From: a virus
Virus record (IMG/VR): IMGVR_UViG_3300009074_000861
Coordinates: 1-28,762 of that record
Direction: 5' to 3' (one strand)
Length of the DNA: 28,762 nt
This document shows, in pieces, positions 1,280 through 27,747 of this stretch. The stretch's first letter is position 1; every line of letters starts with the position of its first letter. Both the position numbers and the translations under genes were made by a program. Below the pieces are notes generated by a model. The model was not told where the DNA came from. It made no database searches and saw nothing but the letters and a program-made list of their open reading frames with translations.

Positions 1280-1531
1280 ATGTCATTTGAAAAAGGTGAT
1301 ATTGTTGCTCTAACGCATGTCCTGTTGGGATCGATATATGTAAAAATAGTAACCAAACTGGCGCTAGAAGACGGTTGGATTGTTTCAGAACTAAATTTAC
1401 AATCGACTATTTACGGTAAACAGTATATGGTCTACACTAGCGAACTTTCAGAACTTACTGCGGATGAAGCTGAAGACTACGTTATGGCCAAATTAGAAGG
1501 CCGTAAAGATATGATAATCAGGAGAAAATAA
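1280..1531 (+). CDS. Hypothetical protein, 83 aa, possible small beta-barrel
   Basis: The 83-residue frame starts 14 nt after dsbA and ends at TAA 1529-1531. Its opening F-E-K-G-D-I-V-A-L-T and alternating hydrophobic strands look like an SH3/KOW-like barrel, followed by an acidic helix (T-A-D-E-A-E-D-Y). No family is recognised. The gene matters for its neighbour: its last codons contain the AGGAGA that appears to be the ribosome binding site of the polymerase gene. Its stop AAA-TAA-C also sits exactly where the polymerase frame takes over, so the two reading frames are translationally linked. Confidence 0.7.
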   Translation: MSFEKGDIVALTHVLLGSIYVKIVTKLALEDGWIVSELNLQSTIYGKQYMVYTSELSELTADEAEDYVMAKLEGRKDMIIRRK

Positions 1532-1535
1532 CATT
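1520..1535 (+). promoter_or_regulatory. RBS and probable AUU start of the DNA polymerase gene
   Basis: AGGAGA at 1520-1525 is followed after 7 nt by ATT at 1533-1535. The polymerase frame is open from just after TAA 1515-1517 and contains no ATG, GTG or TTG until TTG 1758. AUU at ideal Shine-Dalgarno distance is the best-supported start. The alternative is a +1 frameshift from the upstream frame at AAA-TAA-C. Confidence 0.6.
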
Positions 1536-4196
1536 TACGTTGATGCATTACATGATCGCGAACGCGATACAATCTATGTAGTAGAACGTGACGAGAATGG
1601 TAAGCGTGTACACACGCAATACCCTGCTCGTTACGTTTTTTACTACCCTGATCCGAAAGGACAGTACACTAGCATTTATGGTGACAGTCTTGGGCGATAC
1701 AGCACTACCAGCGGGAAAGCATTTAACAAAGAGAAAAAGTCGTTCTTCGGCAAACGTTTGTTTGAGAGTGACATGAACACTGTCTTCCGTTGCATATCTG
1801 ATTACTACCTAGACGCACCAGTACCTAAGTTAAATATTGGCTTCTTCGATATTGAGGTTGACTTTAATAAGGACCTGGGTTTTGCTCCGCCACACGATCC
1901 GTTTAATATGATTACGGCAGTTGGCGTACACCTTAACTGGCTAGACAAGACTATCTGTCTCGTTATCAAGCCTAAGGGTATGAGCCAAGAAGAAGCAGAA
2001 GAGATTGTAGGGACATTTGATGACGTTATCTTAATGGATAGCGAAGAAGAGTTGCTGCAAACCTTCCTAGATCTGATTGACGACACTGATATTCTTAGTG
2101 GCTGGAACAGCGAAGGCTTCGACATTCCCTACATCACTAACCGTATTGCACGAGTGCTAGGCAAAGACTACACTCGTAAACTTTGCTTGTGGGATCAATT
2201 TCCTAAAAAGCGCAAGTACGAAGCATATGGTAAGGAGCAAGAAACATACGATCTAACAGGTCGCGTACACTTAGACTATTTGCAATTGTATCGCAAATAC
2301 ACTTACCACGAGATGCACAGCTATTCGCTTGACGCAATTTCTGAATACGAACTTGGCGATAAGAAAATAGATTACGAAGGTACGTTAGACCAGCTCTACA
2401 ACAACGACTTTAAGAAGTTTATCGAGTACAATATACAAGATACGGATCTACTGCGCAAGCTAGACGACAAGTTACAGTTTATTGACTTGAGCAACGTGCT
2501 TGCACATGCTAATGGTGTGCTGTTGCCCAATACAATGGGCGCTGTGGCACAAACCGACCAAGCTATTGTTAACCACGCGCACGGACTAGGACTAATTGTT
2601 CCAGACAAAGTTCGCGGGCAAGAGCATGAGAAGGCAGCAGGCGCATATGTTGCGAACCCCGTCAAAGGTATGCACGATTGGATTGGTAGTATGGACCTCA
2701 ACTCATTGTATCCATCAATCCTTCGTGCCTGTAATATGAGCCCTGAGTGTATTATTGGTCAAGTACGGCAAACACTTACAAATGTAGAGATAGAGGCATT
2801 CCGTAAACGCTTTAAGGAAAATCCAATTGCGAGGCACTGGGAAGGCAAATTTGCTTGTCAGGAATACGAACTTGTTATGGCAAGAGATCGCGAAGTAGAT
2901 TTAATTATTGACTTTGAGGATGGAAAGAGCTATACTGCGAGCGGCGCTGAGATCTATGATCTTGTCTTTCAAAACGGTAAGCCTTGGTGTATTACAAGCA
3001 ATGCAACTATCTTCACGTTTGAGAAGCAGGGTGTCGTTCCTGGATTACTTGAGCGTTGGTATGCAGAACGTAAAGAGCTGCAAGCCAAAGCAAGTGTATT
3101 TAAAGGCGACAGCGATAAGAAGGAAGAGTTTGCGTTTTGGGACAAGCGCCAATTGGTTAAGAAGATTAACCTCAACAGCCTTTATGGTGCGTTGCTCAAT
3201 CCGGGCAGTCGGTTTTTTGACCAGCGTCTAGGGCAATCTACAACGTTGACTGGACGTACTATTGCGCGTCACATGTCAGCAGCATGTAATGAAGCAATTT
3301 CAGGTGAATATGATCACACTGGCCTGGCTATCATTTACGGTGACACTGACTCTGTTTACTTCAGTGCGTATCCAGTGTATGCTGATCAAATAGCTAGTGG
3401 CGAGTTTAAATGGGACAAAGATACAATTGTAGAGCTTTACGACGCTGTTGGTGAATCTGTCAATGCAACATTCCCAGACTATATGGCTCGTGCCCACAAT
3501 TGTCCTGACAAATACGGACGTATTATTGCTGCGGCGCGTGAGACAGTTGCAGAACGCGGTATCTTTATCAGCAAGAAGCGTTATGGTATTCTTGTGTATG
3601 ATGACGAAGGAACTCGTGTTGACACTGACGGTAAGCGCGGCAAACTCAAAGTTATGGGACTTGAGATTAAGCGCAGTGACACACCTGACTATATGCAGGA
3701 ATTCCTAAAAGAGATCCTACTGTCAACACTAGAGGGTGCGACGGAAGAAACAATTATCGACCGCATCCGTGAATTCCGTATGGAGTTTCGTGACATGAAG
3801 CCTTGGGAAAAAGGGACGCCAAAGCGCGTTAACAACCTGACTAAGTACACAAAGGAATTCAAGAAAAACGGTAAGTGTCGTGTTGGTCACGTTCTGGCAG
3901 CAATTAACTACAACCGCCTACGTGAGATGCATGACGATGCCTACAGCCTAGAAATTGTCGACGGAATGAAGACTATCGTGTGCTCACTTAAACATAACCC
4001 GATGGGCATGACATCTATTGGTATTCCAACTGATGAAAAGCGCATCCCGTCGTGGTATAAGGATCTGCCGTTTGACGATGCAGATATGGAAGAAAAGATC
4101 ATTACCAAGAAAATTGGCAACTTGCTTGGTACACTGAAATGGGACTTAACCCGCGCCGAAAGCAAGACAACATTCAATGACTTATTCGACTTTTGA
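1533..4196 (+). CDS. 43: T4-type family B DNA polymerase (gp43)
   Basis: This replicative polymerase has 887 residues if read from the AUU at 1533, close to T4 gp43 (898). Exonuclease motifs: D-I-E at 106-108, W-N-S-E-G-F-D ending at D197, and Y-N-I-Q-D with D303. Polymerase motifs: D-L-N-S-L-Y-P-S-I with D388 (A), K-x-N-L-N-S-L-Y-G around 544-552 (B), Y-G-D-T-D-S with D604 and D606 (C). K-K-R-Y-G and M-G-L-E-I-K-R-S follow in palm and thumb. The C-terminus F-N-D-L-F-D-F resembles the T4 clamp-binding tail, fitting the clamp gene downstream. A start at TTG 1758 or ATG 1773 would remove about 75 residues, including N-terminal sequence (I-Y-V-D, R-D-E-N-G-K-R, S-I-Y-G) that parallels T4/RB69 gp43. 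The exonuclease motif positions also fit the longer form. Identity is near certain; the start is not. Confidence 0.95.
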   Translation: MYVDALHDRERDTIYVVERDENGKRVHTQYPARYVFYYPDPKGQYTSIYGDSLGRYSTTSGKAFNKEKKSFFGKRLFESDMNTVFRCISDYYLDAPVPKLNIGFFDIEVDFNKDLGFAPPHDPFNMITAVGVHLNWLDKTICLVIKPKGMSQEEAEEIVGTFDDVILMDSEEELLQTFLDLIDDTDILSGWNSEGFDIPYITNRIARVLGKDYTRKLCLWDQFPKKRKYEAYGKEQETYDLTGRVHLDYLQLYRKYTYHEMHSYSLDAISEYELGDKKIDYEGTLDQLYNNDFKKFIEYNIQDTDLLRKLDDKLQFIDLSNVLAHANGVLLPNTMGAVAQTDQAIVNHAHGLGLIVPDKVRGQEHEKAAGAYVANPVKGMHDWIGSMDLNSLYPSILRACNMSPECIIGQVRQTLTNVEIEAFRKRFKENPIARHWEGKFACQEYELVMARDREVDLIIDFEDGKSYTASGAEIYDLVFQNGKPWCITSNATIFTFEKQGVVPGLLERWYAERKELQAKASVFKGDSDKKEEFAFWDKRQLVKKINLNSLYGALLNPGSRFFDQRLGQSTTLTGRTIARHMSAACNEAISGEYDHTGLAIIYGDTDSVYFSAYPVYADQIASGEFKWDKDTIVELYDAVGESVNATFPDYMARAHNCPDKYGRIIAAARETVAERGIFISKKRYGILVYDDEGTRVDTDGKRGKLKVMGLEIKRSDTPDYMQEFLKEILLSTLEGATEETIIDRIREFRMEFRDMKPWEKGTPKRVNNLTKYTKEFKKNGKCRVGHVLAAINYNRLREMHDDAYSLEIVDGMKTIVCSLKHNPMGMTSIGIPTDEKRIPSWYKDLPFDDADMEEKIITKKIGNLLGTLKWDLTRAESKTTFNDLFDF

Positions 4197-6750: not shown

Positions 6751-8253
6751 ATGACAAAACACACAGTTGATCTGAATGAATCTAACCGAGATTATTCAAT
6801 CTTTTTGCCTAGCATCAGTAGCTTTTACACAGGCACAATTGACAATCCAGACACACGAACACCTCCAGGCTTTGAGCTAGGACTTGATGGACTTGATTTC
6901 CTCAAGCCAAAAGACAATTACTTTAGCTACAAGTATGGTCTTTACTCAGCTGGACATGCACAACTTGACTTGGCCAAAACAGACGCTGCTGAAGCTATGG
7001 TACAAAAGCGTGATCGCAACCATAGCTTCATCCTAGGCGACTCAGGTGGGTTTCAAATCATTACTGGTATCATCAAGCAGGACTGGAATAACTTCTATAC
7101 AGATGATACGCTACGCCATAAAATTCTTAACTGGCTAGAACATACTGCTGATTACAGCATGGGACTTGATGTTCCGACACTAGCTGCAAGTGAACCATAC
7201 AGTTCACGTAACGGTATTAAAGACTTCCAGCAGTGTTTGGACTATACAAAGTTCAACAATGACTGGTTCATTAAAAACCGTAAGCACCAAACAAAATTAC
7301 TAAACTCGATGCAAGGACGTACAACTGACGAGGCTCGCATTTGGTTTGATCAAGTTAAAGACACTCCGTTTGAGGGCTTTGGCTTTGGAGGATCAACTAG
7401 TAAGAACTTGGTTGTTGTACTCAAACTATTGGTTTGGATGCGTGATCATGGACTTATGAAACAGGGTGAGCAAGATTGGTTGCACTTCCTAGGTGTTAGC
7501 CGTGTTGAGTATGCAAGCTATTACACCACAATCCAGCGTGTACTGCGACAGACTGTTAACCCAGACATCAATGTAAGCTATGACGCGGCAAGTGCATTTA
7601 TCATGGCAACAAAGGGTCAGCATTATGACAACATCTTGCTTAACAACAAGAAGTTTATTGCCTCATCCAATGCTGTTATTGATGACAAGCGATTTGCTGG
7701 CAGCGACATGCCTATGCCCAATATGAGTCCAATTTACAACCGTTTGACGGCTGGTGACTTGTGCGTACACAGCCACGGTGTGCCTGATTTGAGTGCACTC
7801 GAAGCAGCAGGTATTGACATTGAAGAAGCAATGTCTAATAAAGAAATGCTAAACAATCCTGAACTTTGGATTGAGCAAGGCACCATGAACAGGATCAACA
7901 AAGTAGGCAAAACTAGCTGGGATACGTCAAGCTATCTATATGTCATGGCGCACAACGTCTACAAAACAATTGAGACACTACAACAGGTTAACCAAACTGT
8001 TGACCTAAGTCGTGTTGATGCTGGTGATTTTGATTATCATGACTTTACTGCAATGTCAGCGCGTAAAGGCAAGCTAGATCTTAGTTACTGGACGCCCACA
8101 CATGTATTGGTTATAAACAAAATTATTGAAGAAGCCCTTACAAGTGAGACTCCAATGGATGTAATTAATGGTGCTCAAAGTTATTTAGATAGCAAAAGTA
8201 TTGTTAAAGGACATACTGACAATACATCGACATTCAACAGCCTCTTTGACTAA
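6751..8253 (+). CDS. dpdA: DpdA-like guanine transglycosylase (7-deazaguanine DNA modification)
   Basis: The 500-residue product carries the TGT-superfamily signature G-D-S-G-G-F-Q at 96-102, G-L-D-V-P-T at 138-143, M-Q-G-R at 187-190 and G-F-G-F-G-G near 209-214. H-F-L-G-V and S-Y-D-A-A-S (276-281) follow, with D278 a candidate nucleophile. Tail-end zinc cysteines of bacterial tRNA TGT are not evident, and the protein is longer than Tgt (about 375 aa). Both points favour a phage DpdA-type enzyme, which exchanges guanine in DNA for a 7-deazaguanine. A consensus promoter and RBS AAGGATAA precede it. folE, queE and a queD-like gene in the same window fit precursor synthesis. A tRNA or other nucleic-acid substrate cannot be excluded. 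Confidence 0.8.
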   Translation: MTKHTVDLNESNRDYSIFLPSISSFYTGTIDNPDTRTPPGFELGLDGLDFLKPKDNYFSYKYGLYSAGHAQLDLAKTDAAEAMVQKRDRNHSFILGDSGGFQIITGIIKQDWNNFYTDDTLRHKILNWLEHTADYSMGLDVPTLAASEPYSSRNGIKDFQQCLDYTKFNNDWFIKNRKHQTKLLNSMQGRTTDEARIWFDQVKDTPFEGFGFGGSTSKNLVVVLKLLVWMRDHGLMKQGEQDWLHFLGVSRVEYASYYTTIQRVLRQTVNPDINVSYDAASAFIMATKGQHYDNILLNNKKFIASSNAVIDDKRFAGSDMPMPNMSPIYNRLTAGDLCVHSHGVPDLSALEAAGIDIEEAMSNKEMLNNPELWIEQGTMNRINKVGKTSWDTSSYLYVMAHNVYKTIETLQQVNQTVDLSRVDAGDFDYHDFTAMSARKGKLDLSYWTPTHVLVINKIIEEALTSETPMDVINGAQSYLDSKSIVKGHTDNTSTFNSLFD

Positions 8254-8261
8254 GGACAGAT

Positions 8262-9326
8262 ATGACACAAACATTTATATTCGCACTCGAACCACTAGAT
8301 TCTCGTTATACTAAACAGTGGTATGATGAGGTTCCTAAGCAATTAGACATTCACACAGGCGCTGACCGTATGTTGGCGCCTGAATCTATCACAGTTGCTG
8401 GTAAACAACGTTGCGCCTATGCTACCCCAGGAGCCTTCCTGGACTTTACTGACACTAATTACTGGAAGAGCACCCAGCTAGCAGAGTTCACAGACATGAT
8501 GCGTAGGGATGAAGTGCCTGATGACGCAGTGATATTGTTTACGGACTTCTGGAACCCTGCGCTAATTCAAGTCGCCTACATGCGTGACTTGCTAGGGAAG
8601 AATTGGAAAATACACGGCATTGCTCACGCAGGCGCGTATGACCCAAGCGACATCCTAGGTTACAAGATGGGTAGCTGGAGTCATGATTTTGAACTCAGCT
8701 TATACTTTGCGAGTGACAAAACATACTTTGCAACCCAATTCCACCGTGATATGTTCATAGCAAGTTTGGACATTAAACCTGAGCAACAAGCACGGGCAGT
8801 GGTAGCAGGGCAACCTTATCAATATTTGAATACAGCTCTTGCAGAATTTGATAGCACAGATAAAACTGATACAGTAATGTGGCCTCACCGTTACAATGAT
8901 GATAAGCAACCAGAGATCGCTGAGGACTTAGCAAGTAACTTTGATGTGTTTATTACACAAAAACATCAGTTGAATAAAGATGAATACTATGCTAAACTAG
9001 CTAAAAGCAAGGTAGTATTCAGTTGCAGTTTGCACGAGAATCTAGGTATGAGTATGATTGAAGGCACCATTGTCGGCTGTCTTCCTATTGCTCCTGATCG
9101 TGCAGCGTACAGTGAAATTTATCTAGATGAGTTTCTCTACCCTAGCGTATGGACAGAGTCTTATGCACAGTATGAAAAGCATAAGGATTTGATGCATGAG
9201 TTTATACAAAAACGTATTGACAATTATGATATGTATTCTGAACTATTACCGGAACAGGTAGAACGAATTCAGAAGTTTATTGATCCGACACTTATGTTCC
9301 AACACATGGTAGGAGAAAAACTATGA
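8262..9326 (+). CDS. GT-B fold glycosyltransferase
   Basis: The 354-residue product has the group 1 glycosyltransferase signature H-E-N-L-G-M-S-M-I-E at 258-267 (E-N-x-G plus downstream E), preceded by K-S-K-V-V-F-S-C-S and followed by G-C-L-P-I-A-P. That is the nucleotide-sugar site in the C-terminal Rossmann half of GT-B enzymes. The N-terminal half (F-I-F-A-L-E-P-L-D-S-R) is the acceptor domain and shows no family I recognise. No membrane helix is visible, so it acts in the cytoplasm. It starts 8 nt after the dpdA-like stop behind AAGGACA and overlaps gmhA by 4 nt, so the sugar donor is most plausibly GDP-heptose. Acceptor candidates are modified DNA, LPS or a virion component; the sequence does not decide. 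Confidence 0.8.
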   Translation: MTQTFIFALEPLDSRYTKQWYDEVPKQLDIHTGADRMLAPESITVAGKQRCAYATPGAFLDFTDTNYWKSTQLAEFTDMMRRDEVPDDAVILFTDFWNPALIQVAYMRDLLGKNWKIHGIAHAGAYDPSDILGYKMGSWSHDFELSLYFASDKTYFATQFHRDMFIASLDIKPEQQARAVVAGQPYQYLNTALAEFDSTDKTDTVMWPHRYNDDKQPEIAEDLASNFDVFITQKHQLNKDEYYAKLAKSKVVFSCSLHENLGMSMIEGTIVGCLPIAPDRAAYSEIYLDEFLYPSVWTESYAQYEKHKDLMHEFIQKRIDNYDMYSELLPEQVERIQKFIDPTLMFQHMVGEKL

Positions 9327-9886
9327 GTATGATTACAGACTACATTACAAAGACACAAACTACAATTGGTGACATTGCAAGTATTGAAAGTTCAATTCAA
9401 GACTTTGCTAATGTTTGTATTGAAGCATTATCACATGGCAACAAAGTTATATTTTGTGGCAACGGTGGTAGCGCAGCAGACAGTCAGCATCTATCTGCAG
9501 AACTGATGGGGCGTTTCCTTAAAGATCGCGCACCATTAGCAGCGTTGGCACTCACAGTAGACACCAGTGCACTCACTGCAATTGGTAACGACTACGGTTA
9601 TGAGCAAGTATTTGCTCGCCAGTTGGGCGGCATTGGTCATACAGGTGATGTGCTCGTGGGACTCAGCACAAGTGGCAACAGTGCCAACATTGTGAATGCG
9701 TTTCACAAAGCAAAATCTATGGGCATACTGACAGTTGCAATGACAGGCCATCGCGCAAGCGCATTGAGCACACTTGCAGATATTACAATCTATGCGCCTA
9801 GTGACGAAACAAATCACATCCAAGAGTGTCATATCACTATTGGTCATCTGGTATGTAAGATTGTTGAAGAGGAAATGTTCCCTTGA
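9323..9886 (+). CDS. gmhA: Sedoheptulose-7-phosphate isomerase (phosphoheptose isomerase)
   Basis: The 187-residue length is close to GmhA (192). The SIS fold shows C-G-N-G-G-S-A-A-D-S-Q-H at 45-56 with E60, S-T-S-G-N-S at 115-120 for phosphate binding, and Q-E-C-H at 167-170, which carries the catalytic Glu/His region. The enzyme converts sedoheptulose 7-phosphate to D-glycero-D-manno-heptose 7-phosphate, the first step of heptose synthesis. The start overlaps the glycosyltransferase stop (ATGA) and the stop overlaps the next start (TGATG), so it belongs to one translationally coupled cassette. Family members that isomerise other sugars (DiaA-like) lack these neighbours; confidence is high. 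Confidence 0.92.
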   Translation: MSMITDYITKTQTTIGDIASIESSIQDFANVCIEALSHGNKVIFCGNGGSAADSQHLSAELMGRFLKDRAPLAALALTVDTSALTAIGNDYGYEQVFARQLGGIGHTGDVLVGLSTSGNSANIVNAFHKAKSMGILTVAMTGHRASALSTLADITIYAPSDETNHIQECHITIGHLVCKIVEEEMFP

Positions 9887-11037
9887 TGCGCCAAGCAGTT
9901 ATACTATGTGGCGGACAAGGTACACGGTTAGGTGACCTGACAACAGAGACACCCAAACCATTATTGCCAGTCGGCGATCGTCCTTTTATTGAGCACTTGA
10001 TCCAAGAAGTTACACGTTATGGCTTTGACGACATTATACTATTGACTGGGCACTTAGGTGAGCAGTTTGAATCATATGATGGCACAACAATCAATCGTGC
10101 AACAATACGTGTTAGCAGAGAACCAGAACCATTGAATACTTGGGGCGGCGTTGCGCTTGCACATGACCTCCTGGACGACTACTTCCTACTATTGAATGGT
10201 GATAGCTGGTTGGATTACGACCTTACACATTTGCGCAGCATGGAACCTGATGGGATCCATATGATTGGGCGTTATGTTAAACAAGCTGATCGTTACGAAA
10301 CACTAAACATTAATAAGTCAAGTGTCAAGCAGATTGTGCCCCGTGGCGATGCTGCACACGGATTTATTAACTCTGGTGTCTATGTCGTTAACAAGGTTGT
10401 CGCGACAGATATTCTTCCTGACGCAAGGTCATTAGAACAAGAAGTGCTGCCGCATCTAGCAGACATCTGTACACTCACAGTTGAAACCTGTCAGAGCTCA
10501 ACATTTTTTATTGATATTGGTATTCCTGATGACTATGAACGTGCACAGGTTGCAGTGATGCAACAGAGGACACGTCCTGCATTATTCATTGATCGTGACA
10601 ATACGCTCACAGTTGACGAAGGATATACACATCACCCAGACGACATGGAGTTTAAGGACGGTGCAATTGATTTAATCAAGTATGCCAACCATATGGGCTA
10701 CTATGTTTTTGTTGTAACAAACCAGGGTGGTGTAACAAAAGGTAAGTATGAAGAGCATTATATACTTGATTTCCATCGAAAGATGCAGTATACTTTAATG
10801 GAGCATAGCGCACACCTGGATGCAGTAGAATACGAGATAGGGCTAGACAGCCCGCGTCGTAAGCCTCAGCCAGGGATGCTATTAGATCTTATGCGGGATT
10901 GGCCTATTGACATAGGCAAAAGCATAATGATCGGTGACAAAGAAGCGGATGCGCAAGTCGGATACAATGCAGGCATTGTTGGCCACCAATATCTAAGTGG
11001 CAACATATTTGAACTATTTGGAGAATATATAACTTGA
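9886..11037 (+). CDS. hddC-gmhB: HddC-GmhB fusion: heptose-1-P guanylyltransferase and heptose bisphosphate phosphatase
   Basis: Two complete enzymes are fused in 383 residues. Residues 1 to about 225 form a nucleotidyltransferase: L-C-G-G-Q-G-T-R-L at 7-15, K-P-L-L-P-V-G at 24-30, N-G-D at 104-106. This is the HddC type that makes GDP-heptose. Residues 230-383 form a HAD phosphatase of GmhB type: D-R-D-N-T at 236-240, V-T-N-Q-G-G at 277-282, R-K-P-Q-P-G at 325-330, I-G-D-K-E-A-D at 349-355. The zinc-binding cysteine loop of E. coli GmhB is absent. Consecutive reactions are joined, though the phosphatase step precedes guanylylation. I chose ATG 9886 (TGATG overlap with gmhA); TTG 9883 is an alternative. 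The natural order in bacteria is separate genes. Confidence 0.88.
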   Translation: MRQAVILCGGQGTRLGDLTTETPKPLLPVGDRPFIEHLIQEVTRYGFDDIILLTGHLGEQFESYDGTTINRATIRVSREPEPLNTWGGVALAHDLLDDYFLLLNGDSWLDYDLTHLRSMEPDGIHMIGRYVKQADRYETLNINKSSVKQIVPRGDAAHGFINSGVYVVNKVVATDILPDARSLEQEVLPHLADICTLTVETCQSSTFFIDIGIPDDYERAQVAVMQQRTRPALFIDRDNTLTVDEGYTHHPDDMEFKDGAIDLIKYANHMGYYVFVVTNQGGVTKGKYEEHYILDFHRKMQYTLMEHSAHLDAVEYEIGLDSPRRKPQPGMLLDLMRDWPIDIGKSIMIGDKEADAQVGYNAGIVGHQYLSGNIFELFGEYIT

Positions 11038-12074
11038 TGTATGTTAGCAAGACCCCTTTACGTGTTAGTTTGTTTGGTGGGGGCACGGATTATCCAGAAT
11101 ACTTTGAAAACAATCCTAGCGCAGTGTTAGGCGGAACAATCAACAAATACATTTACACCACGGCGCTTGACTTAGCACCATTTGCAGAGCAACGTTTCCG
11201 TGTAAGCTACAGGGTGGTCGAGGACTGCAATACAGCAGACGAAATTAGCCATCCAGTAATACGTGAAGTGCTCAAAGAAGCAAACTATAATGCACCTACT
11301 GGCTTTTACACTGTAAGTGACTTGCCTGGCAGCACAGGACTTGGTAGCAGCTCTAGCTTTACAGTTGGATTTATCCAGCTAATCCAGCAGATATCAAATT
11401 CTCCCCCTCATCCTTATTCTCGTGCTGCACTCGCATCACAAGCAATTAGAATTGAGCGCGACGTGTTGGGTGAAAATGTTGGTGTACAGGACCAAACACA
11501 TGCCGCCTTTGGCGGGCTAGCGTGTTATGATTTTGGCTATATGGATTATGAGCTGTTTGGTGATGAGAGACATGAAATTGTTATGGAGCAACAGCCAATT
11601 GAACTATCAGAATCTCGCATGACACTACTAAACCAGTCTATGGTTCTTGTCTATACAGACATACAGCGCCATGCTAGTGAAGTAGTTTCATCACAAATTG
11701 AGCAAACTATCAAAGGTTCCAACGCAGATTATCTAAATACAATGTATGAGATGGTAGGCGAAGGGAAAAATATACTCGAGCGCGAAGGCAATGATGCCCA
11801 AGCATTACGTGACTTGGGTGCCTTACTAAATCAAAGCTGGGCACTAAAACAAAATCTCGGCAAGGGCGTTACAAACGCAACTGTTAATGATATATACAAC
11901 ACAGGTAGGGATATAGGAGCCTGGGGCGGAAAGCTCTTAGGCGCTGGAGGGGGCGGCTTTGTTATGTTTCTTCTCACTCCTGAATTAATTCCAAACTTTC
12001 GCGCTGAATTTGGCGCTAACAATGTCATCCCCGTAGAGTTTGTGAGCCAAGGCTCTCGGATTCAAGCGGTATAA
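11037..12074 (+). CDS. hddA: D-glycero-D-manno-heptose 7-phosphate kinase (GHMP family)
   Basis: The 345-residue product has the GHMP kinase layout. It starts K-T-P-L-R-V-S-L-F-G-G-G-T-D-Y at 5-19, has the ATP loop G-L-G-S-S-S-S at 101-107, and the C-terminal G-A-G-G-G-G-F at 302-308. The F-G-G-G-T-D start is typical of HddA and related sugar kinases. It phosphorylates heptose 7-phosphate at C1 between the GmhA and GmhB steps, completing the route to GDP-D-glycero-D-manno-heptose. The ATG at 11037 overlaps the upstream stop (TGATG). GGAGA lies 12 nt upstream, 9 nt before an alternative TTG at 11034. Fucokinase-like family members are similar, but the neighbours decide the call. Confidence 0.9.
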   Translation: MYVSKTPLRVSLFGGGTDYPEYFENNPSAVLGGTINKYIYTTALDLAPFAEQRFRVSYRVVEDCNTADEISHPVIREVLKEANYNAPTGFYTVSDLPGSTGLGSSSSFTVGFIQLIQQISNSPPHPYSRAALASQAIRIERDVLGENVGVQDQTHAAFGGLACYDFGYMDYELFGDERHEIVMEQQPIELSESRMTLLNQSMVLVYTDIQRHASEVVSSQIEQTIKGSNADYLNTMYEMVGEGKNILEREGNDAQALRDLGALLNQSWALKQNLGKGVTNATVNDIYNTGRDIGAWGGKLLGAGGGGFVMFLLTPELIPNFRAEFGANNVIPVEFVSQGSRIQAV

Positions 12075-14422: not shown

Positions 14423-14706
14423 CAAAAGCATTACAAGTTGTTGGACATTATTACCGACACAAAGACAAACCATATACAATTGTAGCTGGGGCAGAAGATC
14501 CTGAACAAATAATTGAAAATGGCGATAAATGGGAAGATGTGCGTGATGGACTCTGTCGTTGGTTTATTAATAACGAAGGGTTCACATTTGAGAGCCTAGT
14601 TGTTCGTAGACCTGATTCCAATAAAGATACTAATGATTTATCTGCCGAGATTGAGTTTGTTGACGATGGTATTGTAATGGCCAAGCTACGGGGATATATA
14701 GATTAA
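14419..14706 (+). CDS. Hypothetical protein, 95 aa
   Basis: The start overlaps the deformylase stop (ATGA, with GGTGGAG upstream) and the stop overlaps the queE start (TAATG). The 95-residue product looks like a mixed alpha/beta fold: a Y-Y-R-H-K-D-K-P-Y-T strand region, a Trp-rich central helix (W-E-D-V-R-D-G-L-C-R-W-F) and an acidic C-terminal strand pair. No family is recognised. Coupling to queE hints at a shared transcript rather than a shared role. Confidence 0.65.
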   Translation: MTKALQVVGHYYRHKDKPYTIVAGAEDPEQIIENGDKWEDVRDGLCRWFINNEGFTFESLVVRRPDSNKDTNDLSAEIEFVDDGIVMAKLRGYID

Positions 14707-16133: not shown

Positions 16134-17234
16134 ATGACTAGAAACTATACATTCACATCGGAGAGCGTAAGCCGTGGCCATCCAGATAAAGTTGCCGACC
16201 AAATTTCAGATGCATTACTCGATGAGGCCCTTAAACGTGGGGACCAAACGACGCGATGCGCGATCGAAACGCTTGTTACAACAAATATGGTCACACTTGC
16301 GGGTGAGGTCACTAATTTCAATCTTACAAAGCTCGAGGTCGAGCGAATCGTTCGTAGTGTCGTCGAATCCATCGGATATCCAAGCGGCGGCGGTTTCGAC
16401 TGGGCTACACTCAATGTATACAACGAATTACACGCGCAAAGTGCAGACATTCGATTGGGCACGGATACCTTCGGCGCAGGAGACCAGGGAATCATGTTTG
16501 GTTACGCAAGCAATGAAAACCCTGACTTTATGCCCATGCCTATCTTCCTCGCGCACGGGCTCTTACAAGAGCTTGATGGATTGCGTAACAACGGACATGA
16601 CTGCCTCCTTCCGGATTCTAAAAGCCAGATCTCCGTCGAATATGAAAACGACACTCCCCGGCGGGTCAAGTCTGTCGTTTGCTCACACCAGCACACACAA
16701 GGTTCAATCGATCAAGTCCGTGAAACCATCAGGGGCGCCGCCATGGACTTCGCGCCCCTTGGGCGACTAATTAATAATGACACACAATGGCACATCAACC
16801 CAACAGGAAACTTCGTAATTGGAGGGCCCGACGGTGATGCAGGGCTAACAGGACGTAAAATTATTGTAGACACTTACGGCGGCTGGGCCCCACATGGTGG
16901 CGGCGCGTTTAGCGGCAAGGACCCAACAAAGGTCGATCGTAGCGCAGCATACATGGCACGGTGGTTAGCTAAGAATGTCGTTGCAGATGATATGGCCGAT
17001 TGGTGTCAAATTCAGCTGTCTTATGCTATTGGTGTCAAGGAGCCAATAAGTATATATGTAGACAGTAACGGACACAACAGAACTATCGAAAAGTTCATCT
17101 GTGATAATATAGACCTTACACCTAAGGGCATCATTGATCGTTTCGATTTGTTCAACTTCACTGAGTACAGTGCAAATTGTGTTTACGGCCATTTTGGTAA
17201 CAAACAGGTTCCTTGGGAAAACGTCGGATGGTAA
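16134..17234 (+). CDS. metK: S-adenosylmethionine synthetase
   Basis: The 366 residues cover the whole family (E. coli 384). Landmarks: S-E-S-V-S-R-G-H-P-D-K at 9-19, G-A-G-D-Q-G at 114-119, N-P-T-G-N-F at 222-227, G-G-P-x-x-D-A-G-L-T-G-R-K at 230-242, and G-G-G-A-F-S-G-K-D-P-T-K-V-D-R-S at 255-270. It makes SAM from ATP and methionine, in the cytoplasm. In this phage it could supply QueE or a methyltransferase outside the window. RBS GAAAGG lies before the ATG. By eye the first two thirds use more C-ending codons (TTC, CTC, ATC, GTC, TCC) than neighbouring genes, and the last third looks like the neighbours. That suggests recent acquisition or recombination but was not computed. Confidence 0.95.
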   Translation: MTRNYTFTSESVSRGHPDKVADQISDALLDEALKRGDQTTRCAIETLVTTNMVTLAGEVTNFNLTKLEVERIVRSVVESIGYPSGGGFDWATLNVYNELHAQSADIRLGTDTFGAGDQGIMFGYASNENPDFMPMPIFLAHGLLQELDGLRNNGHDCLLPDSKSQISVEYENDTPRRVKSVVCSHQHTQGSIDQVRETIRGAAMDFAPLGRLINNDTQWHINPTGNFVIGGPDGDAGLTGRKIIVDTYGGWAPHGGGAFSGKDPTKVDRSAAYMARWLAKNVVADDMADWCQIQLSYAIGVKEPISIYVDSNGHNRTIEKFICDNIDLTPKGIIDRFDLFNFTEYSANCVYGHFGNKQVPWENVGW

Positions 17235-18005: not shown

Positions 18006-18974
18006 ATGAAACTTATTACTACCCTTGCGGCTATTTGTTTGGCCGCAACTCCAGCCTTAGCACGAGATAATGTGCAAGTTGCTGGTTCATCTACCGTTCT
18101 ACCATATGCTAGCATAGTAGCAGAAGCATTTGGTGAGAATTTTGACTTTCCAACACCAGTTATTGAAAGCGGAGGCAGCTCAGCTGGCTTGAAGCGTTTC
18201 TGTGAAGGCGTCGGTGAAAGCACAGTTGACATTGCAAATGCCAGCCGTGCAATGCGGGACAGCGAGCGCGAGGCTTGTGCAGTAAACGGTGTGACTGACA
18301 TCGTTGAAGTGCGTATTGGTTATGATGGTATTGTATTCTCAAGCCAGGTTGATGGATTTAACTTTGCGTTTGACCAAAAGGATATCTACCTTGCACTCAA
18401 TGCTGCATCAACAGCAACAACCTGGAACGAAGTAAACCCAGCATTTCCTGAGCAGGAAATTCTAATGTTTGTGCCAGGCACCAAGCACGGAACACGTGAA
18501 GTGTTTGAAGAGCAGGTTATGCTAGTTGGTTGTGAAATGGTTCATGGTGCACCAGCAGACGATGCAGCAGAAGACGCTTGCATGGACTTGCGTACAGATG
18601 GTCGCAGTGTAGACATCGATGGCGACTACACAGAAACACTTGCTCGTATCAACAGCAACCCAGATGGCATTGGCGTGTTTGGTCTTGCGTTCTACGAGAA
18701 CAACACTGCCAAGCTTCAAGCTGCAACAATGGCAGGTGTATTCCCTACAACTGAAACCATTGCATCAGCAGAGTATCCTGTCAGCCGTCCACTGTTCTTC
18801 TATATCAAGGCAGCGCACGTTGGCGTGATCCCTGGTCTGCATGAATTTGCGCAGTTCTTTGTAGCTGACGAGATTGCTGGTCCAGACGGTCCATTAGCAC
18901 AGTATGGCTTGGTATCAGACCCAGAACTAGCCGAGACACAAGATCGAGTTCTAAATCTTGACATAATGCAATAA
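18006..18974 (+). CDS. pstS: PstS-like periplasmic phosphate-binding protein
   Basis: A Sec signal peptide covers residues 1-19 (M-K-L-I-T-T-L-A-A hydrophobic core, cleavage after A-L-A). The mature protein starts near R-D-N-V-Q-V and has the PstS-type phosphate-site motifs G-S-S-T-V at 27-31 and S-G-G-S-S-A-G at 55-61, then D-I-A-N-A-S-R-A-M where bacterial PstS has S-R. In 322 residues the family is full length. It would bind phosphate in the host periplasm and feed the host PstCAB transporter, raising phosphate supply during infection. pstS is a known auxiliary gene of marine phages, there under host phosphate control. AAGGATTTTACA precedes the ATG, and a terminator hairpin follows the stop. 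Confidence 0.9.
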   Translation: MKLITTLAAICLAATPALARDNVQVAGSSTVLPYASIVAEAFGENFDFPTPVIESGGSSAGLKRFCEGVGESTVDIANASRAMRDSEREACAVNGVTDIVEVRIGYDGIVFSSQVDGFNFAFDQKDIYLALNAASTATTWNEVNPAFPEQEILMFVPGTKHGTREVFEEQVMLVGCEMVHGAPADDAAEDACMDLRTDGRSVDIDGDYTETLARINSNPDGIGVFGLAFYENNTAKLQAATMAGVFPTTETIASAEYPVSRPLFFYIKAAHVGVIPGLHEFAQFFVADEIAGPDGPLAQYGLVSDPELAETQDRVLNLDIMQ

Positions 18975-26941: not shown

Positions 26942-27241
26942 ATGGCAATCTATCAACGTGACCGAGACTTCCACAGACTGTTCTCAGAAATCAACGTTGA
27001 TGTAGTTCCCCTTAAGTTCGTCAGAGACATCACCTGCGTATTGGTTGATGGTTCCAAAGTTGTTATCAATGAAAGCGACTTTGCTGACGAAGCTGAACAG
27101 GGCGACCACATCGAACAATTACTGAGAGGATTAACTTTCTACGAGGATCTGTGCGATTTACAGATTCGAATCAACTACGAACGAGTTGAAGAAGATGTAG
27201 TAATTGATGTCGAAAAAATACTTAAAAATATAGGCAAATGA
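26942..27241 (+). CDS. Conserved phage hypothetical protein, 99 aa
   Basis: The ATG at 26942 follows AAGGCTAAAGCC. The 99-residue protein opens M-A-I-Y-Q-R-D-R-D-F-H-R-L-F and has V-P-L-K-F-V-R-D, V-L-V-D-G-S-K-V-V-I-N-E-S-D-F and R-I-N-Y-E-R-V-E-E-D-V near the end, consistent with a small alpha/beta domain. It overlaps the DHFR gene by 4 nt (ATGA). I recognise the pattern as phage-conserved but cannot give a function. Confidence 0.72.
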   Translation: MAIYQRDRDFHRLFSEINVDVVPLKFVRDITCVLVDGSKVVINESDFADEAEQGDHIEQLLRGLTFYEDLCDLQIRINYERVEEDVVIDVEKILKNIGK

Positions 27242-27747
27242 TTAAAGCAATAATGGCCTGCGATTCGCAGGGAGGAGTTGGAAGAGATGGCAATCTTCCT
27301 TGGCCTCACAACAAAAAAGATCTCATGCACTTCAAGGAATTGACGTCTGGGCATACAGTAGTAATGGGCAGCGGCACCTGGAATAGCGGGATGCCAAAAC
27401 CTCTTCCTAACCGCAGAAACGTTGTAGTGTCTCGCAATCCTGAGTTTGAAGTGCAGGGTGGTGAACTCCTAACTGGTGATATCAGTCAGGGCTTGACAAA
27501 TCTGTCAGGAAGTAATACAGTATTTGTAATAGGCGGTGCTATACTGTTTCGTGAATTGATTAATGAAATATCAATTTTACATCTAACACGCATTGCCGGA
27601 AGTTATGATTGCGACGCATTTATTTCACTAGATGAAATTGCGTCTAAATTTGAAATTATTGATCGTGTCGAAGTTGACTCGATGACTACATTTGAAACCT
27701 ACTTTGCAAGGAAACTGCATGACATTTCTATCGACACAAAGTTTTGA
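27238..27747 (+). CDS. folA: Dihydrofolate reductase
   Basis: The 169-residue product starts M-I-K-A-I-M-A-C-D and has G-G-V-G-R-D-G-N-L-P-W at 12-22, K-D-L-M-H-F-K with D28 at the folate site, and V-M-G-S-G-T-W at 42-48 for NADPH binding. The second conserved block I-G-G-A (V-F-V-I-G-G-A-I-L-F) follows. This is the T4 frd counterpart. It regenerates tetrahydrofolate consumed by thymidylate synthase, whose gene lies 600 nt downstream, matching the T4 pairing of frd and td. The start overlaps the preceding stop (ATGA). Confidence 0.92.
   Translation: MIKAIMACDSQGGVGRDGNLPWPHNKKDLMHFKELTSGHTVVMGSGTWNSGMPKPLPNRRNVVVSRNPEFEVQGGELLTGDISQGLTNLSGSNTVFVIGGAILFRELINEISILHLTRIAGSYDCDAFISLDEIASKFEIIDRVEVDSMTTFETYFARKLHDISIDTKF

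Follow-up and report, generated by a model that had tools for sequence, protein, structure and literature searches.

Initiation codons of the AUU type are known from a few cellular genes. For infC, E. coli uses ATT and Streptomyces ATC (PMC5472188), whereas S. aureus uses AUA (PMC13009471). Such variation among AUU, AUC and AUA between bacteria (PMC5472188; PMC13009471) resembles that at the start of the phage polymerase gene described here. However, infC is cellular and autoregulated, since the IF3 that it encodes reads its start codon, while a phage polymerase cannot itself discriminate start codons. In S. aureus, the AUU start of cvfC1 and the AUA start of ccpN follow an extended Shine–Dalgarno (SD) sequence (PMC13009471). 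The AUU start of E. coli pcnB, as cited in PMC13009471, keeps the expression of a nucleic-acid enzyme low; it resembles our case in being an AUU start on the gene of such an enzyme, but it concerns a single cellular gene, whereas here a phage lineage keeps the trait on its replicative polymerase. The GTC start of Streptomyces sigR and its strong SD are conserved across species, and the gene is repressed by IF3 (PMC5472188). A rare start joined to a strong SD is conserved there as in the phage clade, but the sigR codons are GTC or GTT and were demonstrated experimentally, while the starts of the clade are predicted from sequence.

Polymerase synthesis is also controlled at translation in T4, where gp43 controls its own translation and the operator bound by the protein includes an upstream hairpin and the ribosome-binding site (PMC3014915). 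Control of a family B polymerase at translation initiation, as for gene 43 of T4 and RB69, is what we propose for the clade; unlike T4, which has an upstream operator hairpin, the clade had no common one in single-sequence folds. No AUU, AUA or AUC start on a phage polymerase was found in the open literature searched, subscription journals being largely outside it.

The polymerase start site in the window and its relatives

The window, that is, the whole 28,762-nucleotide stretch of viral DNA that was analysed, encodes on the plus strand a T4-type (gp43-like) family B DNA polymerase at positions 1533–4196 (887 codons counted from ATT 1533, with the stop TGA at 4194–4196). Exonuclease and polymerase domains of family B (PF03104 and PF00136, both above cut-off) extended along its full length, and it matched PHROG 262 at 8e-201. 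A profile of the clade matched RB69 gp43 (PDB 1clq) at 2e-76, with position 30 of the query corresponding to RB69 residue 34; an N-terminus encoded at 1533 is thus what one would expect. Two in-frame stops on the plus strand, TGA 1512 and TAA 1515 (1512–1517), close the polymerase frame 5' of the SD, and the frame open from 1518 reads TCA GGA GAA AAT AAC ATT TAC GTT GAT GCA. The SD, AGGAGA (1520–1525, plus strand), is separated by a 7-nt spacer from the near-cognate AUU at 1533–1535 (plus strand), the putative site of fMet-tRNA initiation. The first canonical codon in frame is TTG 1758–1760 (plus strand), 75 codons past ATT, and the first in-frame ATG lies 80 codons past it. Upstream, an 83-aa open reading frame (ORF) without a family match (1280–1531, plus strand) ends in AGG AGA AAA TAA; only 1 nt separates the end of its TAA (1529–1531) from the AUU, and the two genes may therefore be translationally coupled in the window. 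On re-reading the sequence, we found all coordinates of the original prediction to be right, namely the frame open from 1518 without ATG, GTG or TTG until 1758, the AGGAGA 7 nt before ATT 1533, and the AGG-AGA-AAA-TAA end of the upstream gene.

Relatives were gathered by scanning viral contigs with the 887-aa protein, which gave twelve close loci, and then by further scans. Among the matches listed, at least 15 distinct members of the clade, a group of uncultured phages that includes the window, were obtained, with 61–100% amino acid identity to the window polymerase. The clade was supported by an SH-aLRT of 100 in a tree of 125 full-length sequences (13 rows), and by UFBoot/SH-aLRT values of 99/92 in a tree of 51 N-terminal sequences when L236 (61% identity) was included. 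The codon aligned with ATT 1533, hereafter codon 1, was non-AUG in all 15 members: ATT in six (the window, L003, L110, L120, L121, and L236), ATA in five (L005, L011, L012, L088, and L089), ATC in L112, CTG in L115, GTG in L111, and TTG in L084. Each of these six variants is a single mismatch away from AUG. AUH or CUG therefore occupied codon 1 in 13 of 15 members, and the ordinary starts GTG and TTG in two. In 11 of 15, the interval from the stop to the conserved Tyr2 contained no ATG, GTG or TTG at all; L120 and L089 have an in-frame canonical codon 17 and 24 codons upstream of codon 1, respectively. With a reservation for these two on account of their upstream codons, a near-cognate start without a usable canonical in-frame start was found in the window and 12 other distinct members. 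The polymerases of L089 (3948–7585) and L236 (5548–8396) are interrupted: in the former the frame stops after 130 residues and the match runs on over about 900 extra bases, and in the latter it stops after 539 residues and the match resumes about 200 bases on. These interruptions are possibly introns or homing-endonuclease insertions.

All 13 AUH/CUG members carry AGGAGA or GGAGA 6–7 nt 5' of codon 1, and the GTG (L111) and TTG (L084) members carry AGGAA 8–9 nt 5' of it. The SD was kept while the remaining upstream sequence diverged, and its mean duplex energy was -7.3 kcal/mol in the clade versus -3.6 to -4.9 kcal/mol in AUG-starting relatives. Considering that 14 further distinct sequences have a one-mismatch non-AUG codon at the same site and an equally spaced SD, the pattern goes beyond chance. 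The AUU start at 1533, which had been suggested by analogy with infC and pcnB, was thus borne out by a comparison of related phages, one of the checks proposed with it. From these sequences, we are highly confident that the polymerase starts at the non-AUG codon 1 site.

A candidate hairpin further downstream, ATCGC GAAC GCGAT (1555–1568, plus strand; 22–36 nt past the A of the AUU), is tentative. It occurs in most clade members, L088, L012 and L236 being without it, and is rare in other relatives; the region folds with a mean of -5.2 kcal/mol in the clade versus -1.4 kcal/mol in the others. In a synonymous-codon control, the mean z was only -1.3, and similar peaks appeared at codons 24 and 44. 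We do not claim this hairpin (+22 to +36), because of the weak control z, the other peaks and the three members lacking it, and because the coding sequence explains much of the fold.

Outside the clade, canonical starts prevailed. The comparison set comprised 134 distinct loci, of which 120 were non-clade polymerases, and 119 of these have ATG, TTG or GTG either immediately ahead of the conserved Tyr or one codon further upstream. The single exception was L072, which reads AAGGAGAGAATT-ATC-AGT-TAC and has no canonical in-frame start. This polymerase (match at 1455) is of the Met-Ser-Tyr type, with ATC, preceded by AAGGAGAG, in place of ATG, and judging from its sequence it probably gained a near-cognate start independently. 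Three cultured jumbo-phage relatives, Vibrio phage 2.275.O, Xanthomonas phage XaC1 and Escherichia phage 121Q, have ATG-Tyr at the equivalent residue, and a fourth, Agrobacterium phage Atu_ph07, has ATG-Pro-Phe. Taken together with the ATG, TTG and GTG starts outside the clade, these cultured relatives suggest that the ancestral start was probably AUG. In Vibrio phage 2.275.O (L342, 272–401), the deposited polymerase CDS begins 43 codons 5' of the conserved ATG, which follows AAGGAG; this annotation is probably over-extended.

Alternative explanations of the start region

A lost base or a substituted start codon arising from sequencing or assembly had been named as the trivial explanation, and one base change would indeed make an ATG in what is a metagenomic contig. 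Nevertheless, ATT, ATA, ATC or CTG recurs at the site in 13 distinct related sequences, 12 relatives other than the window combining a codon that is not ATG, GTG or TTG with the same SD, and L001, from another contig though perhaps not from an independent sample, is identical to the window at the start site. An error of this kind is barely conceivable. The true start might instead be a downstream canonical codon (1758 or 1773), as standard gene callers would report, with the preceding region a conserved noncoding or regulatory element. We found, however, that from codon 2 onward positions 1 and 2 diverged little and position 3 much in pairwise comparisons, whereas the 12 codons 5' of codon 1 showed high, even divergence across positions and were not conserved. 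Coding constraint starts at the codon 1 site. Codons 2–75 evolve as protein-coding sequence, continue into ATG-started homologues and match the N-terminal domain of RB69 gp43, upholding the earlier statement that a start at 1758 would cost about 75 gp43-like residues; TTG 1758 was rejected as start for the loss of these 75 family-conserved residues. The place of the first canonical codon also varies among members (codon 5 or 6 in some), and a downstream start is extremely improbable.

The other route proposed at first was a +1 frameshift of the RF2 type, in which AGGAGA would stimulate ribosomes translating the 83-aa ORF to slip at AAA-TAA-C into the polymerase frame. As in RF2 (prfB), an SD-like sequence precedes the stop of the upstream ORF in the window, and this ORF overlaps the opened polymerase frame there (1518–1531) and in L110. 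Unlike in prfB, no conserved overlapping upstream frame exists in the clade, most relatives lacking it: the upstream stop precedes the SD (-14) in L003, L005, L089, and L104, the upstream ORF shares the polymerase frame in L011, L105, and L087, it ends more than 110 nt away in L121, L088, L012, and L112, and a divergent gene takes its place in L084. Since these arrangements differ, no single recoding event fits all of them, and the absence of conservation in the 12 codons ahead of codon 1 also speaks against a frameshift, which we therefore exclude as highly improbable. Stop readthrough from the upstream ORF was ruled out as well, as the upstream frames are not conserved.

The remaining alternatives concern why the codon is what it is. 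If only an aliphatic residue were kept at position 1, Ile, Leu and Val codons would likewise be expected; however, the Leu and Val codons there are all NTG (P ~0.03, a value that assumes independence and overstates the case). Moreover, codon 1 does not behave like an ordinary Ile codon: AUA supplied 5 of the 12 AUN starts, against 8% of Ile codons in the same genes overall. A near-cognate start might also have no regulatory role, its weakness being balanced by the strong SD and its identity drifting neutrally. The stronger SD of the clade relative to AUG-starting relatives and the wandering of the codon among six near-cognates are consistent with such drift. On the other hand, AUG was regained in 0 of 15 members, although it is one change from all six codons and accounts for 29% of the ATN codons in these genes. 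Its absence from 12 ATN codons has P ~0.017 if these are independent, which is overstated because the lineages share descent; the missing ATG therefore hints at selection against AUG but does not prove it. In seven contigs, moreover, no gene other than the polymerase clearly showed a near-cognate start. The survey took in 374 ORFs with homologues from the window and six contigs of the clade, and in 25 of them the conserved N-terminus extended at least 6 residues ahead of any canonical codon. Clear near-cognate cases among these 25 were the polymerases; the others were antisense shadows, ATG-after-AGGAG genes with conserved upstream DNA, and a small number of short ORFs with low scores. We rejected a genome-wide use of AUH starts, as antisense shadows and ATG genes largely explained the candidates. 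Neutral drift without regulation is, on this evidence, unlikely.

Proposed control of polymerase synthesis

The reading that we prefer, and regard as very likely overall, is that a strong SD allows fMet initiation at a near-cognate codon, and that the lineage retains this codon because it limits, and possibly gates, the synthesis of the polymerase. The identity and position of the codon, its SD, their conservation and the onset of coding are directly observed, and from them we infer fMet initiation at codon 1 and selection for weakness. The strong SD would position the 30S subunit over AUU 1533, where initiator tRNA-fMet would pair with the codon despite one mismatch. The lineage would keep a weak start while drifting among AUU, AUA, AUC, CUG, GUG, and UUG, and the weak codon would keep initiation low and sensitive to initiation stringency, which involves host IF3. 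Such low, stringency-sensitive initiation would cap or gate the synthesis of the replicative polymerase, replacing or adding to autogenous repression of the T4 gp43 type; in members whose upstream stop is nearby, translational coupling may contribute too, and overexpressed IF3 is known to inhibit re-initiation and the growth of M13 (PMC2268962). That the near-cognate start limits polymerase expression is probable, although the strong SD may offset the weak codon, so that net expression might not be low.

More tentatively, host IF3 might hold the polymerase down until initiation stringency changes during infection, a gate that we consider possible but doubtful. If true, the moment at which the phage replicates its DNA would depend on the state of the host initiation machinery. 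No phage IF3 (PF00707) was found in the seven contigs searched, and no tRNA, initiator or other, in the window or in the two largest contigs (159 kb and 168 kb).

The clade suggests a second phage route to control of the polymerase at translation. The trait extends to at least 13 distinct sequences plus the separate case of L072, and the natural series AUU, AUA, AUC, CUG, GUG, and UUG in homologous contexts provides material on near-cognate initiation. In addition, as many as 80 residues are lost from the products of such genes when a gene caller accepts only ATG, GTG and TTG.

Other genes in the window

At 9323–12074, a SIS-domain protein, a nucleotidyltransferase with a HAD domain and a GHMP kinase are encoded in a row, resembling a phage-carried sugar (heptose) nucleotide pathway. 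The 500-aa protein at 6751–8253 had no Pfam or PHROG match; its GDSGGFQ motif is reminiscent of tRNA-guanine transglycosylases. The gene of a radical SAM protein lies at 14706. The S-adenosylmethionine synthetase (16134–17234), the phosphate-binding-protein-like PBP domain protein (18006–18974) and the dihydrofolate reductase (27238–27747) are host-like metabolic genes in a phage.
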